From Candidatus Poribacteria bacterium (GTDB lineage: Bacteria > Poribacteria > DTPJ01 > WJIO01): 24,841 nt of DNA. Shown one piece after another: positions 10,662 to 19,120 of this stretch (the first letter of the stretch is position 1; every line of letters begins with the position of its first letter). The notes under the pieces were generated by a model, which was not told the DNA's origin, did not search any database, and saw only the letters and a program-made list of their open reading frames with translations. The stretch is from positions 1-24,841 of the forward strand of contig WJIO01000211.1 of assembly GCA_014730235.1 (NCBI GenBank), in the 5' to 3' direction. The translations under genes were made by a program, and so were the position numbers.

Positions 10662-10777
10662 TAATTAATATTCACTGTTTTTCTGTGAATATATTTAAAA
10701 TTAAGTCCTGTTATTCCCGCGAAAGCAGGAATGACGTATTCTATAGGCAACAATATAAAATCAGTGAATATTAATTA
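10662..10777. repeat. 116-bp element with 16-bp terminal inverted repeats
   Basis: Perfect 16-bp inverted repeats (TAATTAATATTCACTG at 10662-10677 and its complement at 10762-10777) bound the element. Inside is a third relative of the GTCATTCC hairpin (10710-10735, loop GAAA, with one mismatch and one G-T pair). The left terminus can also fold locally: ATATTCAC pairs with GTGAATAT. It has no coding capacity, so a MITE-like unit is the simplest reading. It fills most of the hisS-aspS gap. Confidence 0.6.
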
Positions 10778-13619: not shown

Positions 13620-15416
13620 ATGGACTTGAATAAAATACGCAATTTTTGTATTATAGCCCACATAGATCATGGCAAATCAACCCTGGCCGATAGAATACTG
13701 GAACACACCAAAGCGATAACTCCAAGAGAAATGCGGGAACAGTTTCTGGATACTATGGAGTTAGAGCGGGAGCGAGGAATAACTATTAAAGCTCAGTCGG
13801 TTCAATCCGAATACAAGGCAAAAGATGGCAATAAATATATACTTAATTTAATTGATACCCCCGGACATGTAGATTTTACCTATGAAGTATCCCGAAGCCT
13901 TAAAGCTTGTGAAGGTGCTATTCTGATAGTGGACGCCGTTCAGGGAATTGAAGCCCAGACCCTGGCTAACACATATCTGGCCTTGGATCACGATCTGGAC
14001 ATTATACCTGTAATAAATAAAATTGACCTGCCAAACGCCAGAGTCGAAGAAGTAAAGAAACAGATCGAAGATGTTATCGGCATTGATGCCAACGAAGCCA
14101 TCCTTACAAGTGCCAAAGAGGGTATTGGCACTCAGGAAGTGCTGGAAGCTGTTGTCCAGAGAATAAGCCCACCAAAAGGTGATCCGTCTAATCCGCTGAA
14201 AGCTTTAATTTTCGATTCCGCTTACGATCCCTACCGAGGTGTTATTACTACTGTCAGGGTGTTTGATGGCGTGGTTAAGAGAGGCATGGAAATAATCATG
14301 ATGTCAACACGTAAAGCCTATGAGGTTGACGAAGTGGGTATATTCAAACCGGTGATGACCTCTGTTAAAGAAATTACAGCCGGTTCAGTGGGTTATTTGC
14401 TGGCAGGATTCAAAGAGATCAAAGACGTTAAAGTGGGTGATACCATTACTGGAAAAGAGAATCCCGCATCCCTGCCTTTATCAGGATACAAAGAACTGCA
14501 ACCAATGGTTTTCTGTGGACTTTATCCGGCTGATACTGATGATTACGAAGATTTAAGGGAAGCTATGGAACGTCTAAAGCTGAATGACGCTTCTTTTGTA
14601 TATGAACCTGAAAGCTCACCGGCTTTGACATATGGATTCCGATGTGGTTTTCTAGGAACCCTGCACATGGAGATTATACAGGAACGTTTAGAGCGGGAAT
14701 ATGATCTAAACCTGATCGCAACTGCTCCCAGCGTTAAGTATAAAGTAATTAAAACTGATGGTACTATTGTTGAAGTGGATAATCCGTCAAGACTTCCAGA
14801 CCCAAATGAAATCGAAATTATAAAAGAGCCTTTTGTTAAGATCCATGTTATGCTTCCCAGTGACTATATTGGATCTATAATGGAACTCTGTCAGGGCAGG
14901 AGAGGGGTGTTTAAAGGGATGGAATATATAGACACTTCAAGAGCTCTTCTGTCATATGAAATGCCCCTGGCTGAGATTTTAATGGATTTTTACGACAGGC
15001 TTAAATCCCTTACTCGCGGTTATGGTTCTATGGACTATGAATTAGGTGAATACAAAGAATCAGAATTAGTCAAACTGGATATACTAATTCATGGAAAACC
15101 TATTGATGCCCTGTCTGCTATAGTACATAAAGATAAATCTTATGAGCGCGGTAAAGCCCTGGTCGAAAAGTTAAAGGAAGTTATACCAAGACAGCTTTTT
15201 GAAGTGCCTATACAGGCGGCTATAGGCAACAGGATAATAGCTCGTGAAAGTATAAGACAGTTGCGTAAGGACGTTATTGCAAGACTTTACGGCGGTGACT
15301 ATACAAGGAAAAGAAAGCTTCTGGAAAAACAAAAGGCAGGAAAAAAGCGCATGAAACAGATAGGTAACGTTGAAATACCTCAAGAGGCTTTCATGGCTGT
15401 TTTGTCTGTTGATTAA
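13620..15416 (+). CDS. lepA: Elongation factor 4 (LepA)
   Basis: A 598-residue translational GTPase, full length for LepA/EF4, which acts on the ribosome during translation under stress. The G motifs are intact: AHIDHGKST (G1), RGITIKAQS (G2), DTPGHVDF (G3), NKIDLP (G4) and SAKEG (G5). The LepA-specific C-terminal domain is present ([25 protein letters not shown] and the closing [10 protein letters not shown]). The region upstream of the ATG has only a weak Shine-Dalgarno. A signal peptidase gene follows 31 nt downstream, the same lepA-lepB order as in E. coli. Confidence 0.97.
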
Positions 15417-15447
15417 TTTACTATCCCGCTGCATGGAGGTGTTTATA

Positions 15448-16095
15448 ATGGCTAAAAACAAACAATCTACAAGGGAAAAATCTTTCAGGGATTCTACCAT
15501 TTGGGAATATATTAAAACCTTTGCTTTTGCTTTTGTTCTGGTATTTGGTTTCATGAGACCGTTTGTGGTCGAAGGTTTCAGTATCCCATCTTCATCTATG
15601 GAAAATACCTTGTTGATCGGTGACAGGATATTTGTGTCAAAGTTTGCATATGGAATAAAAATTCCCGGAACAAAGCATAGGATATTAGCTTTTCAGGAAC
15701 CAGAGGTTGGTGATATTTTTGTTTTTGATCCACCTCCCGCAGCCGGTAAAACGCAGAAGTTTGTCAAACGTCTGGTTGGTGTTGAAGGAGATACCATAGA
15801 AATCAGGAATGGTGAATTATACCGAAATGGTAAAAGGGTAACTGATGAAGATTATATAAAGAGGATAAACCGTTCTCCCTTGAGATATCAAAATTTTGGT
15901 CCCGTTACCGTTCCAGAGGATCATGTCTTTGCTATGGGCGATAACAGAGATCTGAGCAGCGACAGCAGAGCCTGGGGATTTGTTCCTGTAGAGGATATTG
16001 CCGGAAGGGCCTTTATCAGATATTGGTCATGGGATAAAAACGCTAATTGGTTTCACAAAATCAGGTTTTCCCGTATAGGCCGTCCTTTAAGCTGA
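15448..16095 (+). CDS. lepB: Type I signal peptidase, first copy
   Basis: A 215-residue membrane-anchored serine/lysine protease that removes signal peptides from exported proteins. One transmembrane helix (about 22-36) precedes the catalytic Ser50 in IPSSSMENTLL. The general base Lys107 lies in FVKRLVGVEGD, and the closing box is FAMGDNRDLSSDSRAWGFVP. The start at 15448 is set by GGAGGT at 15435-15440; an in-frame extension upstream would run into lepA and is rejected. A second copy of equal length follows after 98 nt. Confidence 0.95.
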   Translation: MAKNKQSTREKSFRDSTIWEYIKTFAFAFVLVFGFMRPFVVEGFSIPSSSMENTLLIGDRIFVSKFAYGIKIPGTKHRILAFQEPEVGDIFVFDPPPAAGKTQKFVKRLVGVEGDTIEIRNGELYRNGKRVTDEDYIKRINRSPLRYQNFGPVTVPEDHVFAMGDNRDLSSDSRAWGFVPVEDIAGRAFIRYWSWDKNANWFHKIRFSRIGRPLS

Positions 16096-16193
16096 TAAAA
16101 AAGGTATAAGTTTTGTTATCTTTTCTTCGATCACCTTTAATTTTACCTCTGATTATATTTGTTCTTATTTTAGTGGTAGGAGGAGTTATCTTT

Positions 16194-16841
16194 ATGAAGG
16201 ATAAGGAAAATTCTAAAGAGAAAAAGTCTTTCAGAGAAAGCACTTTTTGGGAGTATTTACAGGTATTTACGGTAGCCTTTGTGCTGGTTTTTGGTTTTAT
16301 GAGACCTTTTGTGGTAGAAGCCTTTAAGATACCATCAGCTTCTATGGAGGATACTCTCCTGATAGGTGATCGTATATTGGTAGCGAAGTTTATGTATGGT
16401 ATAAAGATTCCCTTCACCGATTATAAAATAATGGATTTCCAGGAACCTAAAGTCGGAGATGTATTTGTTTTCAAACCTCCAGCCGCTGCCGGTAAGACGC
16501 AAAATTTTATTAAGCGAATAGTGGGGGTTGCTGGTGATGTCATTTATTTAAGAGAGGGCAATTTATATAGAAATGGAAAAAGGGTTGAAGGTGAAGAATA
16601 TGTAAAAAGATCGTCTTATTCAAGGGGTAGTCCTCAAAATATGCCGCCATATAAAATACCCGAAGGTTATGTATTTGCAATGGGAGATAATCGGGATCAC
16701 AGCAGTGACAGTAGGGTCTGGGGACCTGTTCCCGTTGAAAATATTAAAGGGCAAGCTTTTATTAAATACTGGTCATGGAACAGTGAGGGAGACTGGCTTC
16801 ATAAGATCAGGTTCTCACGAATTGGACGACCAGTTAAATAA
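16194..16841 (+). CDS. lepB: Type I signal peptidase, second copy
   Basis: Also 215 residues and collinear with the preceding signal peptidase, with which it shares most positions. Ser50 (IPSASMEDTLL) and Lys107 (FIKRIVGVAGD) fall at identical numbers, and the FAMGDNRDHSSDSRVWGPVP box is intact, so it should be active. AGGAGGAG at 16178-16185 fixes the start at 16194. The main divergence is around residues 148-160 (SSYSRGSPQNM), near the region that shapes substrate access. This may give the two enzymes different preproteins. A recent tandem duplication in the lepA operon is the likely origin. Confidence 0.94.
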   Translation: MKDKENSKEKKSFRESTFWEYLQVFTVAFVLVFGFMRPFVVEAFKIPSASMEDTLLIGDRILVAKFMYGIKIPFTDYKIMDFQEPKVGDVFVFKPPAAAGKTQNFIKRIVGVAGDVIYLREGNLYRNGKRVEGEEYVKRSSYSRGSPQNMPPYKIPEGYVFAMGDNRDHSSDSRVWGPVPVENIKGQAFIKYWSWNSEGDWLHKIRFSRIGRPVK

Positions 16842-17376: not shown

Positions 17377-17401
17377 TGTTATTAAAAACCAATAATTTAG
17401 A

Positions 17402-17441
17402 TTTCATAAGGGTTAATGGTTTACCATTAACCCTTATGAAA
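17402..17441 (-). terminator. Strong hairpin between tyrS and the acetyltransferase
   Basis: A perfect 18-bp stem (17402-17419 with 17424-17441) encloses a TTTA loop. On the minus strand it lies 14 nt beyond the tyrS stop, as expected for a terminator. The immediate downstream bases are TCTAAATTATT, and the T5 run comes 12 nt later, so it is not a canonical intrinsic terminator. It could also be an mRNA-stabilising hairpin or a palindromic repeat. Confidence 0.45.
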
Positions 17442-17454
17442 ATAGAAGAATCAG

Positions 17455-18732
17455 CTAGACGAATTTCAGCAGATGATAATTGCGCTTACCAGAACGCAAA
17501 ACAACAATATGACCTGAAGCCAGTGAATTTTTATCTACAACAGCATCAATATCTGTTACGCGCCTGTTATTAATATACATGCCACCATTGTCTATAAGCC
17601 TTCGTGCAGCACCTTTGCTTTTACTTATTTCACACTGCACCATTGCATCCACAACCGGCATACCTGATTCCAATTTATCCCATGAAATCTGAGTTGAAGG
17701 CACATCTTTAAATATGTCCTCTAGCATTTCATCTGTCATATCTGATATTTCCTGCCCGAAGAGCACCTCGGATGTTTTTACTGCTATATCAGCCTGTTTC
17801 TGGCCATGAACGAATTTGGTTACTTCGTAGGCAAGGATTCTTTGAGCTTCCCGCTTTTCCGGTTCTGCTTCATGCTGTTTTTCAATCTCATCAATTTCCG
17901 ACAGGGGCAGGAAGGTAAACCATCTCATGTATTTAATAACATCTCTATCATCAGAATTAATCCAATATTGGTAAAACTCGTATGGTGAAGTTAATTCAGG
18001 ATTAAGGTAGATTGCCCCCTCTTCAGTTTTACCCAATTTTTGACCTGTAGCTGTGGTGATAAGGGGGAAAGTCGCGCCGTAGGCCGATTCACTCACCATC
18101 CGACGAATCAGGTCTATTCCTGCTGTTATATTACCCCATTGATCACTGCCGCCAAACTGGACTTTGCAGTTTTTTGCTTTGAATAAATGCAGAAAATCGC
18201 AGGACTGAAGCAGCATATAGCTGAATTCCGTAAAAGAAATTCCCACGCCGCTTTCCATACGACGTTTAACTGACTCTTTTGCCAGCATTTCACCAACCCG
18301 AAAATGCTTGCCGAAATCCCTTAAAAATTCAATAAGCGTATATTTGGCCAGCCAGTCTGCGTTATTTATGACCGTAAGAGAACCGGAACTTTCGTTTTCA
18401 GGTTCAAGGAGATTTTTCAACTGTGCTTCTACACCTTTTATATTTTCGGAAAGCGCATCTTCAGAAAGCAAAATCCTCTCCTGGGATTTACCGCTGGGGT
18501 CACCGATCATACCTGTTCCGCCGCCGATAAGTGCAATGGCATGATGTCCACAGCGTTGAATATGTGCTAGGGACATCATGACAAACAGGTTACCTACATG
18601 CAGGCTTGATGCAGATGGATCAAATCCTGCATAACATGTCATTTCCTCTTTTTCAAAAAGATCAAAAAGACCCTTATCCGAAACCTGATCTATAAATCCC
18701 CTATCTTTAAGTATTTTCAGTGCATTTTCCAT
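17455..18732 (-). CDS. tyrS: Tyrosyl-tRNA synthetase
   Basis: A 425-residue class I synthetase that charges tRNA-Tyr. Tyr34 starts YAGFDPSASSLHVGNL, which contains the HIGH-like signature. The KMSKS-like loop is KLGKTEEGAIYL, and QFGGSDQWGNI precedes it. An S4 RNA-binding domain closes the protein (SKGAARRLIDNGGMYINN). The ATG at 18732 is chosen because the result aligns with the normal TyrRS N-terminus. An upstream in-frame GTG (18783) lies inside the leader terminator and cannot be the start of a leader-regulated gene. AAAGGA lies 12 nt upstream, slightly long. Expression appears to be controlled by the tyrosine-rich leader and attenuator at 18772-18967. Confidence 0.96.
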   Translation of the reverse strand: MENALKILKDRGFIDQVSDKGLFDLFEKEEMTCYAGFDPSASSLHVGNLFVMMSLAHIQRCGHHAIALIGGGTGMIGDPSGKSQERILLSEDALSENIKGVEAQLKNLLEPENESSGSLTVINNADWLAKYTLIEFLRDFGKHFRVGEMLAKESVKRRMESGVGISFTEFSYMLLQSCDFLHLFKAKNCKVQFGGSDQWGNITAGIDLIRRMVSESAYGATFPLITTATGQKLGKTEEGAIYLNPELTSPYEFYQYWINSDDRDVIKYMRWFTFLPLSEIDEIEKQHEAEPEKREAQRILAYEVTKFVHGQKQADIAVKTSEVLFGQEISDMTDEMLEDIFKDVPSTQISWDKLESGMPVVDAMVQCEISKSKGAARRLIDNGGMYINNRRVTDIDAVVDKNSLASGHIVVLRSGKRNYHLLKFV

Positions 18733-18771: not shown

Positions 18772-18809
18772 AAAAAAACCCACATATCGAGTTGCTTTCG
18801 ATTAGTGGG
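18772..18809 (-). terminator. tyrS leader Rho-independent terminator (C:D)
   Basis: Read on the minus strand, CCCAC (18809-18805) pairs with GTGGG (18783-18779). ATCGA (18802-18798) pairs with TCGAT (18790-18786) across a 2x2 mismatch. The loop is AAGCAAC and seven T follow (18778-18772). It lies upstream of the tyrS start, so it must be read through or prevented for tyrS to be made. Confidence 0.88.
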
Positions 18810-18932
18810 CTGTCCGAATTGATTTCTATTGTATTTTCTTTGTTTTAACTGAAAATCCCATTACCCACCATCGAAAGCAGCGAATAGACATACTGATAGG
18901 TATAATAAAAGTACGGCTGCGATTCGGTGGTG
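18772..18932 (-). promoter_or_regulatory. Ribosome-mediated transcription attenuator of tyrS
   Basis: Four segments form three alternative hairpins on the minus strand. A is 18932-18916, B is 18881-18864, C is 18809-18794 and D is 18790-18779. A:B pairs CACCA/TGGTG, CGAA/TTCG and GCAGC/GCTGC, 14 bp in all. B:C pairs GCTTTCGAT with ATCGAAAGC and GTGGG with CCCAC, again 14 bp. C:D is the terminator. The A:B loop (18915-18882) contains all six tyrosine codons of the leader peptide. A ribosome stalled at the first Tyr codons would cover A, free B to pair with C, and block termination. With ample Tyr-tRNA, or with no translation, C:D forms. Pairings are read by eye and energies were not computed. 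Confidence 0.88.
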
Positions 18933-18967
18933 AATATATTTTTCATAGAGATTTCAGTTTTTTTCAT
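18845..18967 (-). CDS. Tyrosine-rich leader peptide of tyrS
   Basis: A 40-residue ORF from ATG 18967, preceded by AAGG at 18981-18978 with a 10-nt spacing. A second in-frame ATG at 18946 would give 33 residues. The core PYFYYTYQYVY holds six Tyr in eleven residues, with codons at 18913, 18907, 18904, 18898, 18892 and 18886 (first base of each on the minus strand). The stop is at 18847-18845, 35 nt before the terminator begins. Translation passes through segments A and B of the attenuator. The peptide itself probably has no function beyond sensing Tyr-tRNA supply, as with trpL, hisL or pheM. Confidence 0.88.
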   Translation of the reverse strand: MKKTEISMKNIFTTESQPYFYYTYQYVYSLLSMVGNGIFS

Positions 18968-19030
18968 GGATTTAAAACCTTACTTGGTTTATAATTAAAA
19001 ACTTTAAATTGGCCAAATTAAATTAAACCC

Positions 19031-19059
19031 AATATACCATAATAATTCTCTTGTGTCAA
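19031..19059 (-). promoter_or_regulatory. Sigma70 promoter of the tyrS leader
   Basis: On the minus strand, TTGACA (19059-19054) and TATATT (19036-19031) are separated by exactly 17 bp. Transcription should start near 19024, about 57 nt before the leader peptide ATG. The resulting leader RNA to the terminator is about 250 nt. Confidence 0.8.
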
Positions 19060-19090: not shown

Positions 19091-19120
19091 TTGACAATTA
19101 ACATGCTCTTAGGATATAAT
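19091..19120 (+). promoter_or_regulatory. Consensus sigma70 promoter of the aldolase operon
   Basis: TTGACA (19091-19096) and TATAAT (19115-19120) are both perfect consensus hexamers, with an 18-bp spacer. It diverges from the tyrS promoter; the two -35 boxes are 31 bp apart. Start of transcription is expected near 19127, about 34 nt before the fba start codon. Confidence 0.82.

Follow-up and report, generated by a model that had tools for sequence, protein, structure and literature searches.

A predicted tyrosine-codon attenuator upstream of tyrS in a member of the Poribacteria, with candidate sister leaders

Leader-peptide attenuation of aminoacyl-tRNA synthetase genes is known from pheST of the Gammaproteobacteria, and attenuation of trpRS1 in Streptomyces has reportedly been studied by experiment. 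Leader-peptide attenuators have also been predicted for the trpS and leuS genes of Streptomyces, in a study where the tyrosine operons of Actinobacteria are reported to have no conserved upstream RNA structure and tyrosine genes are listed as T-box regulated (PMC1262725). In Bacillus, His leader peptides are predicted to precede a hisS paralogue and hisZ, and the same source wrote in 2010 that, until then, all demonstrated cases of such attenuators came from Proteobacteria or Actinobacteria (PMC2965389).

Here we analyze the leader of tyrS in a 24,841-nt stretch of DNA from Candidatus Poribacteria (contig WJIO01000211.1; hereafter the window). Based on its pairing potential and on folding models, we regard this leader as very probably a classical ribosome-mediated transcription attenuator tuned by the supply of charged tRNA-Tyr. 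The principle is that of textbook trp operon attenuation; what is new is the gene and amino acid (tyrS, Tyr) and the phylum, and the leader is apparently part of a small leader regulon. The open full-text literature, which leaves subscription journals mostly outside and makes any 'first' provisional, yielded neither a Tyr leader for tyrS nor any such attenuator in Poribacteria. Within that literature, the novelty that an earlier note on this DNA had claimed for a Tyr leader governing tyrS holds.

Anatomy of the tyrS leader

In the window, as in its relative Candidatus Poribacteria SpSt-970, the tyrS leader is predicted from sequence to comprise a promoter and then a short translatable ORF, with a run of cognate codons preceding the tyrosine--tRNA ligase gene (six Tyr codons in the window and YYYY in SpSt-970). 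The features are collected in Table 1. The ATG of tyrS is at 18732 on the minus strand. The leader promoter matches the sigma-70-type consensus at 11 of 12 positions and was found at 19059–19031 (minus strand), bearing out the TTGACA-17-TATATT promoter claimed in the earlier note. The sequence CTTGACAC, located at the -35 element of this promoter, is also present 5' of the SpSt-970 tyrS leader. Three neighboring features were seen in passing: (i) a divergent aldolase-like gene has a perfect 12/12 sigma-70-type promoter (TTGACA-18-TATAAT, 19091–19120, plus strand) at a distance of ~30 bp from that of the tyrS leader; (ii) the tyrS stop codon is followed by a perfect inverted repeat, TTTCATAAGGGTTAATGGT/ACCATTAACCCTTATGAAA, at 17401–17441 without a T-tract and (iii) two tandem, similar signal-peptidase-I-like ORFs (15370–16841, plus strand) lie directly 3' of a lepA-like gene.

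The short Tyr-rich ORF of the earlier note is present with its six Tyr codons, but these span ten residues and not eleven. The coordinates agree with the placement of all six in the A:B loop: the end of A lies 2 nt from the first Tyr codon and the start of B lies 2 nt from the last. Segments A–D can form three mutually exclusive helices, as had been claimed, and the series ends in a hairpin with T7, but the helices have lengths of 14 (A:B), 16 (B:C) and 11 bp (C:D) rather than 10–14 bp. The C:D terminator hairpin (18811–18772) has an energy of about -15 kcal/mol in energy folding and lies 39 nt 5' of the tyrS ATG. This hairpin escaped a generic terminator scan, probably owing to an internal loop in the stem.

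Table 1. Positions and sequences of leader features in the window and in related leaders
Feature	Position	Strand	Sequence or detail	Basis
tyrS, tyrosine--tRNA ligase	17455..18732	(-)		TIGR00234, 392.6 bits (cut-off 113.8)
-35 element, leader promoter	19054..19059	(-)	TTGACA	promoter scan, sequence
-10 element, leader promoter	19031..19036	(-)	TATATT, extended TG, 17-nt spacer	promoter scan
Weak Shine-Dalgarno-like site 5' of leader ORF	18978..18981	(-)	AAGG	inferred from sequence
Leader-peptide ORF	18845..18967	(-)	40 codons, MKKTEISMKNIFTTESQPYFYYTYQYVYSLLSMVGNGIFS	sequence
Regulatory run	18884..18913	(-)	YFYYTYQYVY, six Tyr codons, exactly in A:B loop	
Segment A	18916..18932	(-)	CACCACCGAATCGCAGC; pairs with B (protector helix)	
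Segment B	18863..18881	(-)	GCTGCTTTCGATGGTGGGT; pairs with A or C	
Segment C	18794..18811	(-)	AGCCCACTAATCGAAAGC; pairs with B (antiterminator) or D (terminator)	
Segment D	18777..18791	(-)	CTCGATATGTGGGTT; terminator 3' arm	
T7 tract of intrinsic terminator	18772..18778	(-)		
tyrS leader, SpSt-970			A CTGCTATCA, B TGATAGTGGGC, C AAAGCCCACATATCGG, D TTGATAGGTGGGC; T-tract 5' of tyrS	
ileS leader, window's genome (L122, contig C267)		(-)	...LNDDIIIIRLLQTMVGAEISS, IIII; terminator follows	
trpS leader, SpSt-970 (L136)			...KIGIWRWWCIDVQVCPKL, WRWW; strong terminator follows	
trpE leader, window's genome (L259, C337)			...ARNWCWWWRNEVRVCPTPD, WCWWW; strong terminator follows	
trpE leader, SpSt-970 (L258)			...NIRFWRWWWRSVLVCPRQE, WRWWW; strong terminator follows	
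leuA leader (probable), SpSt-970 (L261)			...LYALLLWLCGGLVSDDLALALLQTG, Leu-rich; terminator before 2-isopropylmalate synthase	

The arrangement suggests a scheme whose transcripts, ribosome stalling and response to tyrosine we infer. RNA polymerase would start near 19024, and a ribosome would translate the Tyr-rich peptide while the leader is being transcribed. With Tyr-tRNA plentiful, the ribosome would clear the Tyr run and reach the stop codon, making B unavailable to C, so that C:D could pair and transcription would stop in the T7 tract. With tRNA-Tyr uncharged, the ribosome would stall on the Tyr codons over A and B would be free to pair with C before D is made; no terminator would then form and tyrS would be transcribed. 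If the leader were not translated at all, A:B would form and termination would be the default. Both the pairings and the folding model place the Tyr codons of the window leader where a stalled ribosome would free B. The weakness of the Shine-Dalgarno-like site counts against this reading, as does the absence of the leader from Poribacteria of other orders.

Distribution among tyrS genes and the T-box alternative

The survey covered 80 tyrS loci of many phyla, and in 77 the upstream sequence reached 200 nt or more. A Tyr-rich upstream ORF combined with a terminator is found only in SpSt-970, and the other 79 surveyed genes are without the combination; in the same survey, Poribacteria of other orders have neither a Tyr leader nor T-box features at tyrS. 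Since more distant Poribacteria and other phyla are without the leader, the device is lineage-limited. Tyr-rich upstream ORFs at two further loci (L003 and L064) were set aside for want of a terminator between the ORF and tyrS, and the one in L064 seems to overlap an upstream coding sequence.

Could the terminator and its alternative helices be sensed in another way, by a T-box binding uncharged tRNA-Tyr, by a metabolite riboswitch or by an RNA-binding protein? T-box control of tyrS in Firmicutes (PMC1262725), which the earlier note had named as typical, fits the survey, where an Rfam T-box match is found at the Tuberibacillus tyrS (L028) and GGTGGYACC adjoins a terminator at eight other Firmicutes or Mycoplasmatota tyrS loci. 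A terminator directly 5' of an aminoacyl-tRNA synthetase gene is also the usual T-box layout. However, an Rfam scan of the window returns no T-box and no other family, GGTGGYACC is absent from the window tyrS leader and upstream of SpSt-970 tyrS, and the window tyrS shows none of the tRNA-binding parts of a T-box (RF00230), namely stem I, the T-box sequence and its antiterminator. Sensing by any of these routes would leave unexplained why six Tyr codons sit exactly in the A:B loop and why sister leaders carry cognate runs. We therefore consider sensing of this kind improbable, while it is the best placed of the alternatives to ribosome-mediated attenuation.

Modeled switching of the leader

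The probability of terminator formation was predicted as a function of ribosome position with an equilibrium model based on energy rules. It is 0.96 without a ribosome, ~0.00 for a ribosome stalled at Tyr 19, 21, 22, 24 or 26 (1-based residues), 0.78 for a stall at the sixth Tyr (residue 28) and 0.97 for a ribosome at the leader stop codon. The earlier note had proposed that uncharged tRNA-Tyr stalls the ribosome, that B:C then precludes C:D and that tyrS is turned on; under forced stalls at the Tyr codons the modeled terminator switches as this logic predicts, and the folding model thus supports it. When the stretch from the ribosome to the terminator is dinucleotide-shuffled, none of 300 versions matches the terminator loss under a Tyr stall. 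Increasing the assumed ribosome footprint from 9 to 18 nt shifts the transition by at most about three codons. The switch logic is robust over this range, within which the inferred mechanism does not depend on the footprint assumed.

We also applied a kinetic test in which the RNA is cut before D and the sequestration of C by B is calculated. In the tyrS leader, this sequestration is 95% under a stall and 31% without a ribosome; the value under a stall is equalled by 1 of 300 shuffles and, when the leader peptide is recoded synonymously, by 2 of 500 versions. The Escherichia coli controls pheM and trpL behave similarly, their values being matched by 2/300 and 56/300 shuffles, respectively; for pheM, the automatic terminator call is larger than the core hairpin. 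The trpL result indicates that a true attenuator can fail the kinetic test.

Support for the attenuator model also comes from SpSt-970, a member of the same order and another family, which has the nearest tyrS outside the window's genome (69% TyrRS identity). Its leader has a TTGACA-17-TAGAAT promoter and a 37-codon ORF ending ...SNFYYYYCG, and both leader DNA and peptide have diverged from those of the window apart from the Tyr run. The A:B, B:C and C:D pairings are kept with sequence differences in this comparison of two sequences, which are too few for covariation statistics. The three helices have duplex energies of -21.5, -15.5 and -19.4 kcal/mol, respectively, and all can form; the antiterminator is favored with a ribosome at the initial codons of the Tyr run. 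Loss of the Tyr run and the complementary segments from homologous loci had been named earlier as evidence that would count against the proposal, and the nearest relative keeps both in diverged sequence.

These observations bear on a second alternative, that the leader is a 5' UTR without regulation whose terminator leaks, its Tyr codons being accidental. TAT and TAC codons are cheap in AT-rich intergenic DNA, and a permissive scan of the genome for short, residue-rich ORFs 5' of terminator-like hairpins gives many residue-run short ORFs near T-run hairpins; the scan is not discriminating alone, and its top hits are mostly chance-like. The tyrS leader, however, is one of only 2 among 24,522 short ORFs (10–70 aa, from 1.21 Mb of the window's genome) with at least six Tyr in 11 residues, a density of ~1 in 12,000 short ORFs, for which the chance expectation is ~0.0002 per 250 nt on one strand. 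The B:C sequestration stands above shuffles and synonymous recodings, and the device has been kept in SpSt-970 despite the divergence of the leader DNA. Accident is accordingly very unlikely. Least credible of all is that the short ORF acts mainly in translation, by re-initiation or coupling into tyrS, or encodes a small protein with a function of its own. The ORF ends 112 nt upstream of tyrS, and leader ORFs have been proposed to boost translation via re-initiation (PMC4833913), but a terminator with T7 lies between the ORF and tyrS and the peptide is unconserved outside the Tyr run.

Sister leaders and comparison with known systems

A targeted survey of selected aminoacyl-tRNA synthetase and biosynthesis genes in the window's genome and in SpSt-970 identified the further leaders of Table 1. 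We think it probable that this order of Poribacteria runs a regulon of leader-peptide attenuators that respond to cognate charged tRNAs and cover tyrS, ileS, trpS and the trpE operons, with leuA a probable member. Its tyrS and ileS leaders would be the first leader-peptide attenuators for these genes, and the regulon the first such system in the phylum, taking the place that the T-box has in Firmicutes. The ileS leader of the window's genome is a candidate for attenuation of isoleucyl-tRNA synthetase in response to Ile, as judged from its promoter (TTGACA-17-TAGAAT), an ORF ending in LPAIDLLLALNDDIIIIRLLQTMVGAEISS and a strong terminator, AAAAGCCCATCATTGAATAAATTCAATGATGGGCTTTTT. Common descent of the three Trp leaders is suggested by the V-x-V-C-P or V-L-V-C-P stretch that they share, whose coding sequence, GTGTGTCC, is the B segment. 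On the same strand of the window's genome, trpE is followed by a trpG-like ORF and then trpS, and the trpE attenuator could thus govern trpS as well. In the probable leuA leader, the B segment is at the ORF stop codon (GGGTAGTGGGC).

In the kinetic test, stalling in the ileS, trpS and trpE leaders leads to sequestration of C by B, and C is mostly free once the ribosome moves on; the observed values are reached by 1 to 12 of 300 shuffles. The leuA leader gives no significant result in this test (53/300). In the full-length equilibrium model, switching is seen only in the window tyrS leader and, partly, in the SpSt-970 trpE leader. The other leaders switch only if folded before D exists, and their case therefore rests on kinetics.

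No Phe leader was found upstream of pheST in either genome, no Asp or His leader was seen at aspS and hisS in the window, and the same kind of scan gave no Trp leader at trpE of 28 other Poribacteria. A Trp-rich hit of the permissive genome scan (L182) was rejected, since it overlaps a 671-aa membrane-protein-like ORF at that ORF's end. Other repeats are present in the intergenic regions of the window's genome. A REP-like inverted repeat, TGTCATTCCTGCnnnnGCAGGAATGACA, recurs upstream of pheS, leuS, trpS and other genes (L112, L125, L127 and L137) and is also found at ~10713–10735 of the window. A hairpin of the repeat TGTCATTCCTGC lies just 5' of trpS (L137, C337), which is located between trpG-like and trpD-like ORFs.

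Taken with its sister leaders, the tyrS leader suggests that (i) attenuation of synthetase genes coupled to translation extends beyond the groups in which we found it described (Proteobacteria, Actinobacteria and Bacillus), (ii) tyrosyl-tRNA synthetase, otherwise known for T-box control, can be under leader-peptide attenuation and (iii) control of several synthetase genes in an uncultured lineage works through the reading of codons, not tRNAs.

The closest parallel is E. coli pheST, likewise a synthetase operon under the control of a cognate-rich leader peptide (pheM), with antiterminator and terminator hairpins that compete, but there the amino acid is Phe rather than Tyr, pheM has 14 codons versus 40 and the host is a gammaproteobacterium rather than a member of the Poribacteria. 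The trp operon of E. coli (trpL) has the same four-segment logic of A:B, B:C, C:D and T-tract, but controls a biosynthetic operon and reads Trp. The Streptomyces trpS and leuS candidates are likewise synthetase leaders outside Proteobacteria and differ in amino acid (Trp or Leu) and phylum (Actinobacteria), and the Bacillus hisS paralogue and hisZ are likewise synthetase-type genes with a leader peptide in the place of a T-box, but in Firmicutes and with His. The tyrS T-box of Firmicutes (RF00230) has the same gene, the same signal (uncharged tRNA-Tyr) and the same output (antitermination before tyrS), but reads the tRNA directly, without translation, and none was found at the window tyrS. Codon reading would be another solution to the problem solved by the T-box, and it lends itself to testing in a laboratory host.
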